The position numbers and the translations under genes are program-made. The notes under the pieces were generated by a model. That model ran no database searches. It worked only from the letters and a program-made list of their open reading frames with translations, and was not told the origin of the DNA. Of a stretch of 64,000 bases of DNA, positions 30,960-40,311 are shown one piece after another. Source of the DNA: an uncultured Selenomonadales bacterium (lineage in GTDB: Bacteria > Bacillota > Negativicutes > Selenomonadales > Selenomonadaceae). The DNA is taken from positions 1-64,000 of the forward strand of contig CAMZHX010000010.1 in assembly GCA_947307055.1 (NCBI GenBank), given 5' to 3'. The first letter of the stretch is position 1; every line of letters starts with the position of its first letter.

Positions 30960-32054
30960 TCACTTCGACGCCCGATAAATTAACACGAAGCCCGAAAGCA
31001 ATCCGATTATGTTCGGTATCCAGACGGCGTACATTGGCGCGATTGCTCCAGAACGCCCGATTGCATTCGCCAAAGTCATTATCGCGTAGTACAGAAAGAT
31101 TATCACGACGCTAAGCGCGAATCCGACTGATGACGGCGTTCTTGTCGGCTGAAGTCCCAACGGCACCCCGATTAGTGCGAAAATTAAACTCGCCATTGGC
31201 ACCGTCACGCGCTGATAAAGTTCGGTCTCTAATTTGTTCGTGTTGACGTATTGCGACTTCATGATTGCGATTTGCGCTTTGAGTTCGCTCATTGTCAATT
31301 CTTCGGGCTTTTTCTGCTCGCGAACGATTTGGCGTGGGCTGGCGTTGACCGGTAAAATTTGTTGGTCGAATTTCATCGTATGCGTTCTTTGGTCGTCCGA
31401 CAAGTCATAAATCATGCCGTCATGCATAATCCATTTAGCGTCGCGCCACTCGGCATAAGAAGCGTTTTCGACGTGCGTAACTTTGCCGTCTTCGTTGAGC
31501 ACTTGCATAGTCACGCCCTCTAAAATTTCTTCCTGCGCCTTGTACTCGCGAGCGTAAATCAATCGCTCCATGCGCTCGCCGGCGAATTCCTTAACGATAA
31601 TGTGGTCTTGCGACTTCAGCTCGGTATTGCCTTGAATCTCGTAGTAGACGACGTTGTTATAAGCGGTATTCGCCCACGGCACGACGTGTTCATTAAAAAG
31701 AATCGCGGTTATTGTGACTATCATTCCCAAAATAATGGCGGGCGCGGCAATTCGGCTGAAACTTATCCCGCAAGATTTCATAGCGGTAATTTCGCTCGAA
31801 CTCGATAGCCGCCCGAATGTCAAAAGCGTCGCTAGTAGCATTGACATTGGGAAAGTCCACATGATTATTGCGGGCAAGCCGTAGACGAAAATTTTCACGA
31901 CGGACGTAAGGCTTGCGCCGTAATCGGTGATGTAGCGCGCGATTTTAAACAGCGTGCCCGAACCTATGAAAACCGCCGTGAAGGCGCATATCGCGAACAG
32001 AAACGCGAATATGACTTCTTGAAAAATATATCTGTCAAGTATCCTAACGCGCAT
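30960..32054 (-). CDS. lptF: LptF/LptG family LPS export permease
   Basis: Inner-membrane half of the LptB2FG transporter that lifts LPS onto the Lpt bridge. N-terminal membrane spans (RILDRYIFQEVIFAFLFAICAFTAVF), a periplasmic beta-jellyroll domain (about residues 130-270) and three C-terminal spans (SLIFALIGVPLGLQ, GFALSVVIIFLYYAIM). Only one permease is encoded here; its partner may be elsewhere or it may work as a homodimer. Start at the ATG seven bases after GGAGG. Downstream of lptB. Confidence 0.92.
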   Translation of the reverse strand: MRVRILDRYIFQEVIFAFLFAICAFTAVFIGSGTLFKIARYITDYGASLTSVVKIFVYGLPAIIMWTFPMSMLLATLLTFGRLSSSSEITAMKSCGISFSRIAAPAIILGMIVTITAILFNEHVVPWANTAYNNVVYYEIQGNTELKSQDHIIVKEFAGERMERLIYAREYKAQEEILEGVTMQVLNEDGKVTHVENASYAEWRDAKWIMHDGMIYDLSDDQRTHTMKFDQQILPVNASPRQIVREQKKPEELTMSELKAQIAIMKSQYVNTNKLETELYQRVTVPMASLIFALIGVPLGLQPTRTPSSVGFALSVVIIFLYYAIMTLANAIGRSGAIAPMYAVWIPNIIGLLSGFVLIYRASK

Positions 32055-32070
32055 CAAATGACCTCCGTTT

Positions 32071-32165
32071 AAGGGGAATGGGAAAAGGGAAATGGGAAAA
32101 GGGAAATGGGAAAAGTCTTTTTCTTATCCTCCCCTTTTCCCTTCTCCCATCTCCCTTTTCCCTTA
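32071..32165. repeat. Repeat family B between lptB and lptF
   Basis: GGGAATGGGAAAAGGGAAAT words facing CCCTTCTCCCATCTCCC words. The TAA stop of lptB is formed at its edge (TTGTAAGGGAAAAGG on the minus strand). Confidence 0.8.
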
Positions 32166-32882
32166 CAAAGTAAAATTGCTGCCGAGATAAAATTTCTTAG
32201 CAATGTCGCTGTTAGCAATCTCTTCCGCGTTGCCCTCAAGTAAAATTTTCCCCTCGTTGAGAATATAGGCGCGGTCGACAATGTGCAGAGTTTCGCGGAC
32301 ATTGTGGTCGGTGATTAGAATTCCCATGCCGCGTTTCTTGAGATATTTTATAATTTCCTGAATGTCGGCAACCGCTAACGGGTCGACGCCCGCAAATGGT
32401 TCGTCCAACAAAATAAATTTCGGCTCAAGTGCAAGGCATCGCGCAATTTCTACTCGTCGCCGCTCGCCGCCTGAAAGTTCTGTGCCCTTGCGCTTCTCTA
32501 CGTGACGAATGCTGAATTCCCGCAAAAGTTCATTCAGACGTTTTCGCCGCGCTTGCTTATCCAAATTGAGCGTTTCAAGTATCGCCATTATATTTTCCTC
32601 GACCGTCAGCTTGCGGAAAATCGACGCCTCTTGGGTTAGGTAACTTATCCCCAACTCGGCGCGGCGATACATTGGCAATTTGGAAATATTTACGTCGGAG
32701 ATAAACACTTCGCCCGAATCCGGTCGTTCAAGCCCGACCATCATATAAAAGGAAGTCGTTTTGCCCGCGCCGTTCGGTCCCAATAACCCGACAACTTCGC
32801 CCGTCTCTACCTTGAGCGAAACTTTATTTACTACTGTGCGCTTCTTGAAAGATTTAACTAAATCCTTCGCTTCAAGATTCAT
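32163..32882 (-). CDS. lptB: LptB, LPS export ATPase
   Basis: ABC ATPase powering LPS extraction. Walker [15 protein letters not shown]-loop [17 protein letters not shown], signature [16 protein letters not shown], Walker [14 protein letters not shown] and H-loop [10 protein letters not shown] are all LptB-like, including the FAGVDP and TDHNVRETL phrases that mark the family. 239 residues. It lies 76 bases downstream of lptA, with a terminator-like hairpin between them. Confidence 0.97.
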
Positions 32883-32918
32883 ACTTTGTCGCCTCTGAAT
32901 AGTTTTCTACATGATAGC

Positions 32919-32958
32919 AAAAAAAATCCCCTATCGCAATTTCGACAGGGAAATTTTT
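32919..32958 (-). terminator. Hairpin with T-runs between lptA and lptB
   Basis: Minus strand: CCCTGTCG-AAATTG-CGATAGGG followed by GATTTTTTTT; an 8-base stem with one G-U pair. On the plus strand a T-run also follows. It would end or attenuate lptA transcripts before lptB. Confidence 0.7.
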
Positions 32959-33795
32959 TTACTCGGCTTTAGATTCTTCAGGGTCAATTACAACTGTCTC
33001 ATCGGAAGATTTTTTATCTGGTTCGGCCTGCGCGGAAGGTTCTTTATCGGTCGTCGGCATAGGCGGCATTTCAAATTTCGGCGCGGCTTTCAAGTTGCCG
33101 TCGTCAGCAAGGTAAACCGTCAAGCGATTGCCGCGAATCGTATTGTTATCTTGAATCGCCCACGCGTTGCCGCTCAAAACGGCTTTACCGGCATCCTTGC
33201 CGTTATAGTCGACATTATCGCCGCCCGCCTCCATATTCCGCGCAGGACTCACGAGGTGCGCATTGCCCCGCCCGATATAAAGTTCGTCGTCAATCCAACC
33301 TTCCATTTTGTCGGCGGTGAATGTTCCTTCAACGCGACTTTCGGCCAATCCGCCCGTCGGTATCACGAAATGTTTTCTGTCGTCGGGGTAATAGTCAATG
33401 TGCTCGCTTGTGAAAGTGCGCGTGTCGCCTTCGGGATATTTTTCGTTGGGCGCAAGATTTTGCGTGGCTATGACGTTGCCGTCCGCCATCATATGTCCTT
33501 GCCCGTTGCTAGCCAAAGCGTTGCAAGTTATGCGCATATCCTCGCGCACGACGATTACATTGCCCAAAAGCCGCGCTTCCTTAGTGTTGACGTTGAACAG
33601 CGCGTGAAGTCCGGTCGCCTTAGTCGCGCCGTGCTTCAATAGGACGTTGCCTTCCGCCGTGACAATCCCGCTATTCATGTCGTACTCAATAGCGTCGGCA
33701 TTAACTTCGGACGGCTCATCATTTTGCGGAGCCGCTATTGCTATAGAACTAACAAGCATTGTCGCCGCCAACGCCGCTAAAATTTTTTTCTTCAT
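32959..33795 (-). CDS. lptA: LptA/OstA-type periplasmic LPS transport protein
   Basis: Periplasmic beta-jellyroll that bridges inner and outer membrane for LPS. Signal peptide (to AIAAP), then repeats of OstA-like strands: VNADAIEYDMNSGIVTAEGN, LLKHGATKATG, LLGNVIVV, MMADGNVIATQ. At 278 residues it is longer than E. coli LptA (185) and appears to hold two OstA domains, followed by a disordered acidic tail (PPMPTTDKEPSAQAEP). Ten bases after lptC. Confidence 0.9.
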   Translation of the reverse strand: MKKKILAALAATMLVSSIAIAAPQNDEPSEVNADAIEYDMNSGIVTAEGNVLLKHGATKATGLHALFNVNTKEARLLGNVIVVREDMRITCNALASNGQGHMMADGNVIATQNLAPNEKYPEGDTRTFTSEHIDYYPDDRKHFVIPTGGLAESRVEGTFTADKMEGWIDDELYIGRGNAHLVSPARNMEAGGDNVDYNGKDAGKAVLSGNAWAIQDNNTIRGNRLTVYLADDGNLKAAPKFEMPPMPTTDKEPSAQAEPDKKSSDETVVIDPEESKAE

Positions 33796-33804
33796 GATAA
33801 AACC

Positions 33805-34458
33805 TCACTGTTCATCTTTGACGCCCTTTAGGACTTTAGCGTTGCCCATAAGCCCGAAATGTTTAAAGTCGTTGTCGGCATAAGCCATATCGCCGAAAGC
33901 GCGCATATCGTCTTTGGAAATTTTAACATTACCGGTCGCGATGATTTTATTTTCTGCGACTATCCAATCAAGCTTATCGCTCAAAAGTTTCGCGCCGTCA
34001 TGGGCAGTCACTTTGATATTATCGCTCGCGGTCAAAGTTTCCTGTTCGATACGCCATTCCAAGTGGTCGCATAAAAGTTCGTCTTCGTCGGTATTGGTGA
34101 CGCTGACTTCGCCTTCGGCATGAATAAATTTTTCAATCTGGTAGTAGGTGCCCTTCTTAGCTTTGAGCTCCCAAACTTTTTCCTTATCGTCGTCGCGCTG
34201 ATGAAATTTCCAAACTACGTCGTCCATCTCGAAAATTTGCGTTATACTGTCGATTCTCATTTTCGAGCAGGTCAGCTCCCAAATTACTAGCCCGTCTTTT
34301 TCCTCGACGATTGTATTTCCTTCGTACTCCATAAGCTTTGGCGGGTCGACTTTTTCAATCGGCGGCGGCGCGGAAGGTGTCGTTCTGATTGCCCACACCA
34401 CGACGCACACAACGAAAATTATCACCGTCGCCATTAAAATTTTTCCTCGTGTGCTCAT
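33805..34458 (-). CDS. lptC: LptC, LPS transport bitopic protein
   Basis: Inner-membrane anchored Lpt component that takes LPS from LptFG to LptA. One N-terminal membrane helix (KILMATVIIFVVCVVVWAI), then an LptC/OstA beta domain (VWELTCSKMRIDSITQIFEM, KKGTYYQIEKFIHAEGEVSV, NKIIATGNVKISKDDMRAFG). 217 residues, normal. The ATG overlaps the lpxL stop (ATGA). Confidence 0.92.
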   Translation of the reverse strand: MSTRGKILMATVIIFVVCVVVWAIRTTPSAPPPIEKVDPPKLMEYEGNTIVEEKDGLVIWELTCSKMRIDSITQIFEMDDVVWKFHQRDDDKEKVWELKAKKGTYYQIEKFIHAEGEVSVTNTDEDELLCDHLEWRIEQETLTASDNIKVTAHDGAKLLSDKLDWIVAENKIIATGNVKISKDDMRAFGDMAYADNDFKHFGLMGNAKVLKGVKDEQ

Positions 34459-35381
34459 GATTGCTCCTCTTTAGACTTTCTGCGAACCTTAACCGTATGA
34501 TGCTTATTAGTCTTTTGCATTTCGGGCGGCGTATTCCATCGCTTTTGAAACCAAAGCCATTGCGTCGGATTCTCGCGAATAACTTTTTCCAAAATTTTAG
34601 TCATTTTCTCCGTAAAGCGCAAGAGGTCTGCGTCGGTGTCGCCGGTGTCCTCGAAGCGCATAATTTCCCCTATTTTAACGACGTGCCGCCCATTTTCCTT
34701 GCGAAGTATGAATGCGGGCAAAACCGGCGCATTGAATCGCCTTGCGAAAACGGCGGGGCCTAGTGGCGTCGAAGCGGTCTTGCCTAAAAATTCTATGAAC
34801 GCTCCGCCGGGCCCTGCGTCTTGGTCGGCGAGGAAGCCCAAAATTTTTCCTTCCTTGAGGGCGCGTCCTGCTGCTCGCAATTCGTTTGTGCCGCGATTGA
34901 AAATTTCTACATGAATCGTCGCCCGCAAATCGTCCAAAGCTCGCGAGTATTCGGCATTTGGTTGCAATTTGGCTATCGCGGTGACCGGCATTCCGTTAAG
35001 AGAAAATGCCGCGCTCAACCACTCCCATGTTCCTACATGCCCCGTTAAAACTACCACGCCTTGTCCGCCTAATAACGCCGTGCGCATTCTCTCCAAATTT
35101 TCTATCTCCATGTACTCCGACAAATTTTTTTCGTTGAGGTTGGGCATATAGAGTATGTCGAGCATATTGCGCGCCAAGTTCACGAACGACGCCCGAACGA
35201 GTTTTCGCGCTTGAGCCTCCGAAATTTTTAGCGCAGGCATCATTTGTGCGACTGCTCGTTCCCGCTGCTTTTTGACGAGCAAGTAATATAAATTCCCGAA
35301 CACCCGCCCCAAAAATAAAAGTACGTCGTAGGGCAGGAGCCGTATCAATCTGCTCATCAACATCAGCGTTTTGTATAGCAT
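34455..35381 (-). CDS. lpxL: LpxL/HtrB-type lipid A acyltransferase
   Basis: Adds a secondary acyl chain to lipid A. Lysophospholipid acyltransferase fold with the catalytic H-x4-D-type motif seen as LTGHVGTWEWLSA (HVGTWE, as in LpxL), followed by GILGFLADQDAG and FIEFLGKTASTPLGPAVFARR. An N-terminal hydrophobic helix anchors it (LIRLLPYDVLLFLGRVFGNL). Start at 35381 with GGAGG six bases upstream; an upstream frame overlaps the previous gene and is not needed. The tail is basic. Co-transcribed with lptC. Confidence 0.92.
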   Translation of the reverse strand: MLYKTLMLMSRLIRLLPYDVLLFLGRVFGNLYYLLVKKQRERAVAQMMPALKISEAQARKLVRASFVNLARNMLDILYMPNLNEKNLSEYMEIENLERMRTALLGGQGVVVLTGHVGTWEWLSAAFSLNGMPVTAIAKLQPNAEYSRALDDLRATIHVEIFNRGTNELRAAGRALKEGKILGFLADQDAGPGGAFIEFLGKTASTPLGPAVFARRFNAPVLPAFILRKENGRHVVKIGEIMRFEDTGDTDADLLRFTEKMTKILEKVIRENPTQWLWFQKRWNTPPEMQKTNKHHTVKVRRKSKEEQS

Positions 35382-35398
35382 TTTGTCCTCCAAAAATT

Positions 35399-36592
35399 TT
35401 ATTCGCCTAAGAGAATTGCGACGTTCTTGTCGAGAATGTAGCAATCATGACGTTTCGGCATAGGGTAATTATATTCCTGTGCCAGCTCGAAAAGTTCGTT
35501 GTAAAAAACATAATTATCGGCGTTCGCGACGACTTTGGCTTTATACTCAAAAGATTTTTCATTGTAAGTCTTGAGGTCGAAGACTTGTGAAAAATTTTCC
35601 AGCTTGCCTAAAATCTCCAGTGCCAACAAAGTCCGCAAACACTTATCACAAAAACTACAATTCCCTGTAGAATTGCTGCCCACGAAGTGAACTCGGCAGA
35701 CGTTCAAATATTTTTGCGCGATATGCCAATCAGCAAGATTTTTAATTTTGTCGACGCGGCGATATTGGCAACCGTCAATAATTAACTCGGTGCGCTCGGT
35801 TCCTATCAACGGTACAAAGTACGGCTCGCAAAACTCCGCAAGGTCGAAGAGTTTATATTTGGTGCCGCTATTTTTCATGCCTTTGTAATTGCAAGCACTC
35901 CCGATATAATATCGGCGGATTGCGTTTTGCATAGCCAACACACATGAATAATGCGCTAAAAAAAGCGGGGTGTCGCCGTGTTCTGCGAGGAAAAATTCTT
36001 GGAAATTGGTATCAATCGGGCAAAGCGGCAAGCCCAATTCCCCAGCAAGCGCAATCCCTCTTTCGACGCGACTTTGAGCAATGTATTGCGTTATGGAATC
36101 TTCGACTTTGCCATTCGAGCCGCAGTTAAAAAAGAACATCGCGTTAATTTTGTAATCGGGGTCGGTCTCGTTAATGAATCGGTCGTAAAGTGTGGAAAGG
36201 GAATCGACACCACAGGAAATGCCCGTGCCGATTAAAATCCCTTGCGCTTGAGTGGGCGCGAAACCGTCAACTATAATCTTGACCGGCGAGAGTTTAGGCA
36301 AGAAGTCGCAGAGAATTTTTTGCCCATACCATATCAAATTTTTATAGAGCCGCTTTGAAACGTTGCCGCAAATCCTAAAGTCGGTTTTGTAAGTCATCGC
36401 CAAATATAGCGGGACGAGTAAGAACGGGTCGAAAGTATCATTGACTAAAAGGCGGTCGTAATTCGCGTCAATTTCAAACCACATAGTCTCGGCGGGGGCG
36501 GCGACGTTTATATCGGTGAATTTTATATCGACTTCGAGACGCGCCCTCTTCCCACCCGAATGATATTTGCGCAAATTGGAAATTTCTATCAC
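35399..36592 (-). CDS. QueC-like PP-loop protein, tandem paralogue 1
   Basis: Unassigned protein with two QueC-like marks: a PP-loop (GTGISCGVDSLSTLYD; SxGxDS) for ATP binding, and a cysteine set C-x11-C-x2-C-x2-C-L-R (ending NCSFCDKCLRTL) as in the QueC zinc site. The N-terminal 110 residues form a separate conserved module (VIEISNLRK, FRICGNVSKRLYKN). Start is GTG at 36592, seven bases after GGAGG. With its two neighbours it lies inside the LPS block just before lpxL. Function unknown: nucleoside-type amidation or nitrile synthesis, and sugar amidation as in WbpG, are both possible. Confidence 0.65.
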   Translation of the reverse strand: MIEISNLRKYHSGGKRARLEVDIKFTDINVAAPAETMWFEIDANYDRLLVNDTFDPFLLVPLYLAMTYKTDFRICGNVSKRLYKNLIWYGQKILCDFLPKLSPVKIIVDGFAPTQAQGILIGTGISCGVDSLSTLYDRFINETDPDYKINAMFFFNCGSNGKVEDSITQYIAQSRVERGIALAGELGLPLCPIDTNFQEFFLAEHGDTPLFLAHYSCVLAMQNAIRRYYIGSACNYKGMKNSGTKYKLFDLAEFCEPYFVPLIGTERTELIIDGCQYRRVDKIKNLADWHIAQKYLNVCRVHFVGSNSTGNCSFCDKCLRTLLALEILGKLENFSQVFDLKTYNEKSFEYKAKVVANADNYVFYNELFELAQEYNYPMPKRHDCYILDKNVAILLGE

Positions 36593-36605: not shown

Positions 36606-37727
36606 TCACGGCATAGGGAAATTATTTTCCTTAGCGAATTCAAAATTCTCTGTAGCGAAAACTCTTCTACCATTTTTCGCGACGCAATGCGCTTTATAAT
36701 CTTCCGCCACTTCGCGATACTTTGCTAGGTCGAAAACTTTGGCGAAGGCGTCGAGCTTACCCATTACCTCCAAAGGAAACATTGTCATCAAGCATTTATC
36801 GCAAAGTCCGCAATTTGAAGCGTCTTCGCTGTAGTTGTTGCAGACGTTGAGATATTTTTGCGCAATGCTCCAGTCGGCGATATTTTTAACCTTGTCGACG
36901 CGCCGATATTGCCCGCCGTCAATAATCAACTCGGTGCGCTCGTTCTGAATCAGCGGAACCAAATACAAATCGCAAAAAGCCGACATATCATCGCGCCGCG
37001 AAAATTTTTTTATCTGCTCATAGTTTAGCGCGTTCGGAACGTAGTACCTTGAAACGGCGCGGCTCACACTTAAAACGCAAGAATAAATCGCCAGGTAAAG
37101 AAATTTCGTCCAGTCCTTAGCCTTCCTGAAGGCGTGCAGATTTGTATTTAAAAAATAGCACGGCAAGCCCAAATCTTTTGCGGCGAGCTTGCAGAACTCT
37201 GCACGCTTCAAAATAAGTCCTTGCCATTTCGGGTCGTCGAAGTCGCCATTTGCCGCGCAGTTGAAATAGAATAGCGCATTGATTTTATAATCTTGGTCGG
37301 TCTCGTTAATAAAGTGGTCGTGAATGGTCGCGAGCGAGTCGACGCCACAAGAAATCCCCGTCGCTACGATTTTGCCGCGCTTTTTAGGCGGCTCGGTGAA
37401 ACCGTCGACAATGAACTTGACCGGCGACAACGCATTATAAAAGTCGCACAAAATTTTTGGAACGTACCACTTGATATTTTGATAAAGCTTTTTGGAGACG
37501 TTCCCGCAAATGTGCAAGTCTTGCTTGTGGAGCATCGCCAACCAAAGCGGCACTAAAACAAAAGCGTCATAGCTATCATCGGCGAACAGGTGCCCATATT
37601 TTTTATCAAGCTCGAAGTAAAGCGTTTTCTCCTTGTAAGGCGATGTCATATCGAGAAATTTTATATCGGCCTCAAGGCGCGTCACGTCTCCCGAAGTGCG
37701 CTTACGTAAATTTGAAATTTCTATCAA
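36606..37727 (-). CDS. QueC-like PP-loop protein, tandem paralogue 2
   Basis: Paralogue of the 35399 and 37780 genes over the whole length. PP-loop TGISCGVDSLATIHDHF, cysteine set ending NCGLCDKCLMTM, N-terminal module MIEISNLRKRTSGDVTRLEA and LHICGNVSKKLYQN. TTG start about eight bases after AGGGA. 373 residues. Fourteen bases from paralogue 1. The basic-aromatic middle (YFNCAANGDF, RRDDMSAFCDLYLVPLI) varies most between copies, as expected of a substrate region. Function unknown. Confidence 0.65.
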   Translation of the reverse strand: MIEISNLRKRTSGDVTRLEADIKFLDMTSPYKEKTLYFELDKKYGHLFADDSYDAFVLVPLWLAMLHKQDLHICGNVSKKLYQNIKWYVPKILCDFYNALSPVKFIVDGFTEPPKKRGKIVATGISCGVDSLATIHDHFINETDQDYKINALFYFNCAANGDFDDPKWQGLILKRAEFCKLAAKDLGLPCYFLNTNLHAFRKAKDWTKFLYLAIYSCVLSVSRAVSRYYVPNALNYEQIKKFSRRDDMSAFCDLYLVPLIQNERTELIIDGGQYRRVDKVKNIADWSIAQKYLNVCNNYSEDASNCGLCDKCLMTMFPLEVMGKLDAFAKVFDLAKYREVAEDYKAHCVAKNGRRVFATENFEFAKENNFPMP

Positions 37728-37779: not shown

Positions 37780-38980
37780 CTATTTTTTCTTAACGACCGC
37801 GACAGGCTTTTTCTTGACCGCAGTGGCAGGTTTATTCAATGCCGGCATCGGGAAATTGTTTTCTTTGGCAAAGTCCACGCTCTCCGTCTCAAAAGGCTCT
37901 TTGCCGTAATTTTTCAGGCAACGAAGTTTGTATTTGTCAGAAATCGTTTTATATTTTTCAATATCGAAGACCCCGGAGAAATTATCCAGCTTACCAAGAA
38001 TCTCCAAGGGCAACAAGGTTCGCAGACACTTAGGACAAACACTGCAATTCAAACCATTGGAAGTATATGTATTGCAAGGATGTAAGTATTTTTGACTAAT
38101 TTCCCAGTTGACAATATTCTTAACTTTATCCGTGCGACGATATTGACAACCATCGGGGATAAGCTCCAAATTCTCCGTTTGAATCAGAGGAATAAGATAT
38201 GATTCCGAAAATTCCGCAATATCCTTGTGCGCAAATTTGTTAAATACTTTTGCCTGTTGATAATCAAAAGTAGCGGGCATGTAGTAGCGACAAATTGCAT
38301 TGCTCAAACTCAAAACACAAGATGATAATGAAAGATGCGCAATGGAAAAATATTTGCCTCGTAGATCCTTCATTTTTGTGTTGAAGGCATATAGATTTGT
38401 TTCCAATGAATACATAGGCAAATTCATGCTGTCAGCAGCAAGTCGATTCCCTTCGAATGATTTATCGAAAAAGTCTTGATTGTCTAAGATTTTCTTATGT
38501 GTGCGCATTTCGTGATTGAAATGAAATAACGCATTGATTCGATAATTGGGATCATCTTCCCTTATGAAGTGATCGTAAATTGTTGAAAATGAATCTACAC
38601 CGCAAGAAAGACTCGCGCCTGTCAAAGTGCCCTTGGGTTTTGTCGAAGTAAAACCGTCGACGGTAAGATTAATGAGCGTAAGGGCTTTCGAGAAATCGCA
38701 AAAAATTCGCGGAATATACCACTTGATATTTTGGTAGAGTTTCCTAGAAATATTACCGCAAATGTGCAAGTCCTGCTTATGGTACATCGCCACAAACAAC
38801 GGCACGAGAACGAAAGCGTCATAAGAATCATCAGCGAGCATGTCGGCATTTTCATCGGCAATTTCAAAGTACAACGTTTTCTCCTTGTAAGGTGACTCCA
38901 TGCCGATAAAATCTATATCAGCTTCAAGACGTGTTAGCCCCCCCCCCACTGATTTTACGTAAATTGGAAATTTTAATCAT
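37780..38980 (-). CDS. QueC-like PP-loop protein, paralogue 3, out of frame at a poly-G tract (phase-variable form)
   Basis: Same family as the two downstream genes (GASLSCGVDSFSTIYDHF; NCSVCPKCLRTLLPLEILG), plus a basic tail with two VKKKP-like units. The natural start is the ATG at 38980, seven bases after GGAGG, and reads MIKISNLRKISGGG as in the paralogues. A run of ten G (38938-38947) then shifts the frame and a TGA follows at once. Nine or twelve G would restore a full-length protein. In this state only a GTG at 38949, without a ribosome site, could start the rest. Either a phase-off switch or a sequencing slip. Confidence 0.7.
38938..38947 (-). repeat. Homopolymer of ten G in the 5' coding region
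   Basis: Ten C on the plus strand, the only such tract noticed in the window, located at codons 12-15 of paralogue 3. Tracts of this kind mutate by slipped-strand mispairing. Confidence 0.9.
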
Positions 38981-38993
38981 GGCAAAACCTCCG

Positions 38994-39563
38994 TTATTGG
39001 TTAAGTGATTTTGATTTGTCATCGAGTTCGGGCGTAGTGTAGCGTTCGATAATCTCCTGCCAAAATCCTTGCGCCTTCAAAATAAATTCGATAATCTCAC
39101 GAGCAGCTCCGCGACCGCCGAAATTATTCGAGACGTAATGCGCCTGCTCAACGACTTCGGGCGAAGCGTCTGCAACTGCCGCTCTGAAGCCGACTTGCAC
39201 AAAGACCGGCAAATCAATCACATCATCAGCAATGTAACAAATTTGCTCGTCCGTCAAGTTAAAGTGCGCCTTGATTTTCTTATAAGCGTCGCGCTTATTC
39301 ATCTGCCCTTGCAGGACGAAATTTATTTTCAACTCGGCGGCGCGATGGCTCGTTATGCCCGAAGTCCTGCCCGTAATTATCGCGGTTTTGATTCCGCACG
39401 ATTGCGCAAGGGTTATGCCAAAACCGTCGCGGCTGTGAAACGATTTGAAAATTTCGCCGTGCTCGCCGATTTGCAATCTGCCGTCGGTTAGCACGCCGTC
39501 CACGTCGAATATTATTAGCTTAACTTGCCGCGCTCTGTCAAGTGCCTCTGCTGAAATTTTCAT
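38994..39563 (-). CDS. kdsC: KdsC, Kdo 8-phosphate phosphatase
   Basis: HAD phosphatase giving free Kdo for the LPS inner core. Motif I IFDVDGVLTDG, motif II IITGRTS, motif III with ICYIADDVIDLPV and the short cap-less fold; KSFHSRDGFGI and NNFGGRGAAREI are KdsC phrases. Start at 39563 (MKISAEAL) with GAGGA eight bases upstream, again inside a family A repeat head. 189 residues, typical. The other kds genes are not in the window. Followed by the three PP-loop genes. Confidence 0.94.
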   Translation of the reverse strand: MKISAEALDRARQVKLIIFDVDGVLTDGRLQIGEHGEIFKSFHSRDGFGITLAQSCGIKTAIITGRTSGITSHRAAELKINFVLQGQMNKRDAYKKIKAHFNLTDEQICYIADDVIDLPVFVQVGFRAAVADASPEVVEQAHYVSNNFGGRGAAREIIEFILKAQGFWQEIIERYTTPELDDKSKSLNQ

Positions 39564-39598
39564 TTTTAATTCCTCATTCCTAATTGCTTTCAAAAGGC
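39564..39598 (-). repeat. Family A repeat head between sufC and kdsC
   Basis: Minus strand AAAGCAATTAGGAATGAGGA then ATTAAAA. It supplies both the TAG stop of sufC and the ribosome site of kdsC. Confidence 0.6.
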
Positions 39599-40311
39599 GC
39601 GTAGCCGTGCTCGGAAACTTCGCTGACGAGTTCCGCGCCGCCACTCTTGACGATTTGCCCGTTCAAAAAGATATGAGCGCGATTAACCGGCAAGTGCTTT
39701 AAAATTTGCGCGTTGTGAGTGATGATAATGCAGGAATTATTTTCGTTATGGAATTTGGCGACGCCTTTTGAAACGATTTCTACGGCGTCAACGTCAAGAC
39801 CGCTATCGGTTTCGTCGAGGAGCGCGAGTTTAGGATTGAGGACGAGCAGTTGAAGAATCTCGTTGCGTTTTTTTTCGCCGCCGCTGAACCCGACGTTCAT
39901 ATATCGGCTAGCGTATTCGGGATTGATTTGCAAATCGTTCATGATAGCGCGCAAGTCTTTGCGGAATTGGAGAATTTTAATTTTCGCGCCGGTTACGGAT
40001 TGCTTAGCGGTGCGGAGCATATTTTCTACAGTGATGCCGGGGATTTCCTCTGGGTTTTGGAACGATAAAAAAATCCCGCGCCGTGCTCGCTCGAAAGTTT
40101 TCAGCGCGGATAAGTTTTCGCCCTCGAAGTAGATTTCGCCGCTCGTGATTTCGTATTTGGGGTGGCCTAAGATAACATTCATAAGCGTTGACTTGCCGGA
40201 GCCGTTCGCGCCTAAAATTACGTGAACTTCGCCGGTGCCGACGCGCAAATTTACTCCGCGCAAAATTTCTTTGTCGCCGGCTTTGACGTGTAGATTTTTT
40301 ATATCAAGCAA
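39580..40311 (-). CDS. sufC: SufC, Fe-S assembly ATPase
   Basis: ABC-type ATPase of the SUF complex. GANGSGKSTLMNVILGHP (Walker A with the SufC phrase), FLSFQNPEEIPGI (Q-loop), VGFSGGEKKRNEILQ (signature), LALLDETDSGLDVDA (Walker B) and IITHNAQIL are diagnostic. Start probably the TTG at 40311, eight bases after AGGAG; a GTG at 40320 overlaps the AGGAG. SufB and SufD are not adjacent, unlike most suf operons. The stop is inside a family A repeat head. Confidence 0.92.
   Translation of the reverse strand: MLDIKNLHVKAGDKEILRGVNLRVGTGEVHVILGANGSGKSTLMNVILGHPKYEITSGEIYFEGENLSALKTFERARRGIFLSFQNPEEIPGITVENMLRTAKQSVTGAKIKILQFRKDLRAIMNDLQINPEYASRYMNVGFSGGEKKRNEILQLLVLNPKLALLDETDSGLDVDAVEIVSKGVAKFHNENNSCIIITHNAQILKHLPVNRAHIFLNGQIVKSGGAELVSEVSEHGYAPFESN

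Follow-up and report, generated by a model that had tools for sequence, protein, structure and literature searches.

Is a gene whose start codon is separated from its body by a run of ten G broken, misassembled or switchable? The question arises in the 64-kb stretch of DNA analysed here (the window), where three tandem paralogues on the minus strand lie among genes of lipid A and lipopolysaccharide (LPS) export. A HAD-family hydrolase gene (38994..39644, minus strand; Pfam Hydrolase_3), which from its context we take to be KdsC, stands directly upstream of copy 1. Downstream of copy 3 comes a lipid A acyltransferase gene (34455..35444, minus strand; PF03279, E 2.4e-47), followed by LPS export genes with Pfam matches (30960..34458, minus strand): LptC, an LptA-like gene, an ABC ATPase that by context would be LptB, and LptF/LptG. 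Copy 2 (36606..37727, minus strand), which has a TTG start, and copy 3 (35399..36592, minus strand; the mechanically called ORF starts at 36673, with homology from about 36592) are both in frame and carry no tract.

Copy 1 is built differently. Its ATG (38980-38978, minus strand) is preceded by a GGAGG ribosome-binding site (38988..38992, minus strand) located just past the stop codon of the preceding gene, and the 11 codons that follow encode MIKISNLRKIS. There the frame enters a run of exactly ten G (38938..38947, minus strand; codons 12-15) and, as assembled, it ends after 18 codons at a TGA (38926-38924; start frame 38924..38980, minus strand). In a different frame from the ATG, the sequence stays open between a GTG at 38949 and a stop at 37780 (37780..38949, minus strand; 389 aa), with about 385 codons after the tract free of any further stop, and it encodes a protein with a PP-loop and four C-terminal cysteines (PP-loop/Cys4) that aligns lengthwise with copies 2 and 3. 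The tract thus separates the start codon from the gene's conserved portion, and its length at this position sets the frame of one relative to the other and decides expression. An earlier note on this DNA had described an ATG with a ribosome site, a frame broken by ten G with an early stop, the sole long G tract of the window and a position as the first of three tandem paralogues, and direct reading and alignment bear out all of these.

The run is far longer than expected by chance. No G or C run elsewhere in the window is longer than 5, and a first-order model of the window's composition predicts 0.014 runs of at least ten per window and 0.53 per genome, against seven found in the host genome. 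A dinucleotide shuffle for G8 gives weaker evidence (three overlapping matches against a mean of 0.49, with three reached in 2 of 100 shuffles), and the reversed-pattern search control is uninformative for a homopolymer. The host genome, a draft assembly of 2.46 Mb that is 88% complete and that we take to belong to the uncultured rumen genus Quinella, holds ten tracts of at least nine G (three of 9, five of 10, one of 11 and one of 13), as well as three of exactly eight. Eight of the ten are coding. Five of these are out of frame, in copy 1, a DUF1919 protein, a radical-SAM protein, a citrate-lyase-ligase-like gene and one unknown gene; three are in frame, in two family 8 glycosyltransferase genes (C strand; one assigned by Pfam, one by resemblance) and in a large protein with a marginal RTX match. 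The same genome encodes two large FDLQRF-motif proteins with nearly identical starts (L026/L031; G000:C17, C23), which carry tracts of different length, C9 and C8, in flanks that are 89-93% alike. It also has a G10 flanked by ATGTATA/TATACAT ahead of a tyrosine recombinase gene (L028:3029-3038, that is G000:C27:6328-6337), which looks intergenic.

To place copy 1 among its relatives, we compared it with assemblies from one genome per species. A pattern-based scan of the species-genome collection returned 117 stretches, from which 100 relatives were drawn and 80 kept. Tracts of G8 or longer occur within the gene or at its start in 13 of these 80 loci; one further locus, from Selenomonas ruminantium (L081), has G8 at the 3' end of the gene, additional Synergistaceae copies carry tracts beyond the 80-locus count, and copies with only G7 (L084, L089, L104) fall below the G8 line. 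Among 66 genomes of the genus, 27 contain a match to copy 1, and in several other Quinella loci the homologue again stands behind a frame that by resemblance is HAD-like. One Quinella genome (G001; L006/L071/L281) has G9 at the same N-terminal site with the frame open through it, and another (G148; L265) has G10 behind the same upstream gene end, with the frame broken as in the window. The other Quinella copies with a visible start have short loops of different sequence at the tract site. Outside Quinella, tract-bearing homologues are hosted by Synergistaceae, Oscillospiraceae, a Eubacterium and Candidatus Helicobacter avicola. Across the family the tracts range from G8 to G14 and occupy three places. 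The first, near residue 11, is used in the window, G001, G148 and the Eubacterium; the second, near residues 25-30, in Synergistaceae; the third, directly ahead of the PP-loop motif, in Oscillospiraceae, Helicobacter and divergent copies from Quinella and Synergistaceae. In IMG/VR, 16 stretches fit the search pattern and none encodes a relative. An uncultured Clostridia bacterium carries a G10 tract twice at a distance of 782 bases, with flanks that match (L083:14-23 and L083:796-805).

Of 28 close Quinella rows in the protein tree, the three with a tract do not group together; gain or loss of the tract has therefore happened on more than one occasion. The tree requires eight changes of tract state, six of them forced by well-supported branches, a count that is soft because tract-free rows such as L281_0, L267_23 and L236_3 begin at a locus edge with their upstream part unseen; in L281_0, one neighbour of the window's copy on the tree, the start is cut off.

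If the tracts switch, homologues should be found in both states. We judged by eye the coding frames on either side of 24 tracts, of which 22 were scoreable (L239 and L246 were dropped, their upstream coding frame not being clearly readable). Frame offsets of 0, +1 and +2 occur 6, 7 and 9 times (chi-square p 0.73 against equal thirds, a descriptive value for tracts partly related by descent), so that 6 copies are ON and 16 OFF, near the neutral proportions. The downstream frame is open in all 22, over 259-401 codons. Ten pairs were chosen by hand for dN/dS, and the five in which both copies are OFF give about 0.11-0.21, with dS above 1, the Synergistaceae pairs included: OFF copies are intact and, in the pairs compared, conserved. 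Even offsets combined with a conserved open downstream part are what reversible switching predicts.

The same counts bear on the accuracy of the assembly. The tract could be real but its assembled length wrong, in which case copy 1 would simply read through in every cell; in a draft such as this genome homopolymer lengths are error-prone and may be off by one. Yet the 16 out-of-frame homologues come from unrelated assemblies, five of the eight coding tracts of the host genome itself are out of frame, and so long an uninterrupted run of G, placed where it determines the frame, would stay a slippage hot spot whatever its exact length. We regard a simple length error as very unlikely.

Decay of copy 1 into a pseudogene, with the tract as one lesion, fits poorly because a decaying protein would not stay conserved. 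Two adjacent intact paralogues could relieve selection on it, and its branch on the tree is long (0.56), but no further stop has accumulated in 385 codons, the residues invariant in 58 aligned homologues (copy 1 itself among them) are kept, and same-site tracts recur in other species. Divergence from G001 (pN 0.27, pS 0.76, with synonymous sites saturated) is also like that between the intact copies 2 and 3 (0.30 and 0.76). The absent stops and kept motifs suggest that copy 1 is under selection, and we give decay almost no credence. Just as improbable is programmed slippage, in which the ribosome or RNA polymerase would slip at a set rate and yield protein from an out-of-frame gene. Long homopolymers can cause polymerase slippage in general, and a little full-length protein might be made in any case while the gene is OFF; such a mechanism would nevertheless keep one offset, and it fits poorly because all three are found in similar numbers, over lengths of 8 to 14.

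We therefore return to phase variation, and consider it very likely, judging from sequence, that the copy 1 tract is a contingency switch. The earlier note had proposed as much, and its reading is strengthened by the same-site tracts, the repeated gain or loss, the even frame offsets, the open downstream part and the richness of the genus in tracts. Tracts of at least nine G number 3-88 per genome in 37 genomes of the genus (median 15) versus 0-6 in 23 genomes of other Negativicutes families (median 1; Mann-Whitney on tracts per Mb, p 2.6e-10). Long tracts are also frequent in Candidatus Helicobacter avicola (G066; 89 of at least nine G in 1.8 Mb) and in the six Synergistaceae genomes searched (G060-G065; 14-59 each).

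The richest Quinella genome, G003, has 88 tracts; the lengths of the 85 examined (three near contig ends were left out) peak at 12. For each tract we took as the adjacent piece the longest open frame beyond it on either strand, which is not always the true target gene, and searched 81 such pieces against Pfam. They matched 79 families. Among the 25 families listed are glycosyltransferase 2 (6), DUF4422 (4), TonB receptors (4), radical SAM (4), WcbI (3) and flagellin (2), together with non-surface families such as the PTS IIB domain (2). In the 83 tracts with enough flank for a promoter test, -35/-10-like boxes lie on both sides of 16, against 4.5 in shuffled flanks, under a loose test that admits spacings of 14-29 and places just 4 of the 16 at 15-18. 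Individual cases in G003 (L143-L227, for example L143, L207, L213 and L219) show G9-G16 between TTGACA-like and TATAAT-like boxes, and the spacer length between such boxes might vary with the tract.

Abundance of this kind could also reflect a mutational bias of the lineage, with tract length changing but without a selected role. The genus is G-tract-rich overall, the host genome also has A/T runs of at least nine, and some host tracts, such as L028, look intergenic. One host tract (L027), upstream of an RTX-repeat gene, is flanked by TTGACA and TATAAT boxes at a spacing of 20 bases, but promoter-flanked tracts are no more frequent in this genome than in shuffled flanks (1 of 13 versus a mean of 1.12). 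Against a bias stand the presence of MutS, the glycosyltransferases, WcbI, TonB receptors and flagellin among the 79 families beside G003 tracts, and the excess of boxed tracts in that genome. Loss of MutS as a cause of the tracts is not supported: 33 of the 37 Quinella genomes have MutS_I, and the four misses fall in drafts of 59-84% completeness. The gene classes in G003, taken as raw counts, lower the case for bias, and we consider an unselected origin unlikely.

What would the switch control? In 58 homologues G128, D130, C296, C306, C309 and C312 are invariant and S126 is kept in at least 90%, which gives a PP-loop motif followed by a C-terminal Cys4, the arrangement of QueC (PF06508). Copy 1 had earlier been called QueC-like, a label that holds for these two motifs only; none of the three window copies reaches the curated cut-off of PF06508, and among the 58 homologues one appears in the matches listed, at E 0.025. 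The motif reads SCGVDS in the window family and SGGxDS in QueC, and unlike QueC the family has about 120 residues ahead of the PP-loop. The three copies are without a match above cut-off in Pfam, NCBIfam and PADLOC, and hhalign against QueC gives a probability of 6% (6.4% and 5.8%, P 0.0057 and 0.0065), aligning the PP-loop in one comparison and the cysteines in the other. A search of PDB sequences returned nothing up to E 1 in one run (A1), and in the other (A2) one unconvincing match at E 1.7 to MnmA, a PP-loop enzyme. The likeness to QueC thus extends no further than the two motifs, and the host genome encodes a separate PF06508 QueC elsewhere (C18, E 3.9e-55). A role in defence found no support, PADLOC having matched none of the three copies.

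Gene neighbourhoods offer a different lead. Around distant homologues, a biased sample of 59 hand-picked ORFs from 18 of 31 loci includes polysaccharide pyruvyl transferases (8), Wzx-type proteins (7), ThDP enzymes (5) and 4Fe-4S proteins (5), along with glycosyltransferases and epimerases. With the position of the paralogues in the window, between the HAD hydrolase and the lipid A acyltransferase, this suggests that the PP-loop/Cys4 protein is an enzyme that modifies a surface polysaccharide. By analogy with PP-loop chemistry, we would guess at ATP-dependent activation of a surface-sugar carboxyl. In two other Quinella species, an extra gene lies between frames that by resemblance are LptC-like and LptA-like, and it carries a tract at the same place in both, G9 (L065:8079-8087) and G13 (L069:8060-8072), in frame in each case; this is a second tract within the same gene cluster.

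We propose that replication slippage would alter the number of G in the copy 1 tract and so join the ATG and ribosome site to the frame of the roughly 385 codons downstream, or cut them off from it. As assembled, the gene would be OFF and yield an 18-codon peptide. Switching would add or remove one of three tandem PP-loop/Cys4 paralogues set among lipid A and LPS-export genes, so that a surface-polysaccharide modification would be expected to vary from cell to cell within a clone. We infer that slippage is the cause and that the change is reversible in living cells; phages, protozoa or host antibodies may be the selective agent.

The mechanism of such switches is already known; what is new here is a PP-loop family as a target shared by several phyla, together with how large the repertoire of a rumen genus is. 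We think it fairly likely that this unnamed family, whose tracts fall at three positions, is a recurrent target of phase variation in Quinella, Synergistaceae, Clostridia and Helicobacter, and that Quinella carries switch sets up to the size of those of Campylobacter and Neisseria. One PP-loop family chosen repeatedly in distant lineages would itself point to a surface-modifying enzyme. Switch-rich genomes are mostly known from pathogens, and to our knowledge Quinella does not cause disease; if its tracts switch, large switch sets would be no mark of pathogens, and the matter could be tested in existing rumen read sets.

Quinella is more abundant in some low-methane sheep, and a Quinella sample contained granular and smooth cells, and also cells with and without an electron-dense layer, for which the authors suggest growth stage, different species or preparation artefacts (PMC9585023). 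If our reading is right, a Quinella population would be a patchwork of surface types, and the granular and smooth cells that electron microscopy shows side by side could be accounted for in this way. The terms "phase-variable" and "homopolymer" are absent from that genome paper. Among open-licence PMC papers our searches recovered nothing on phase variation in Quinella, on poly-G phase variation in Negativicutes, on slipped-strand mispairing in Selenomonas, or on the PP-loop/Cys4 family as a target of phase variation. In the same collection, no relevant report of homopolymeric phase variation in rumen bacteria appeared by title and start of abstract, and none of poly-G phase variation in Synergistaceae by title; QueC-like proteins in a polysaccharide context returned, by title, just phage papers.

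Known systems offer two points of comparison. The poly-G tract of Neisseria meningitidis porA is positioned between the -35 and -10 elements. L027 and part of the 16 boxed G003 tracts may, like this tract within a promoter (PMC3639595), be promoter tracts, whereas that of copy 1 is translational and lies outside any promoter. Phase-variable repertoires are described in Neisseria, with 115 phase-variable genes counting all repeat kinds (PMC5084427), and in Campylobacter, with 5-81 per strain under cut-offs that include at least 7 G/C (PMC6321876). Compared with Campylobacter the host differs, ours being an uncultured rumen genus of a different phylum, and the PP-loop family is not named in the excerpts of PMC6321876 available. 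The likeness to the Campylobacter loci lies in the design itself: a G tract within the coding frame whose length sets ON or OFF, mostly at 9-10 G, and which recurs dozens of times per genome.
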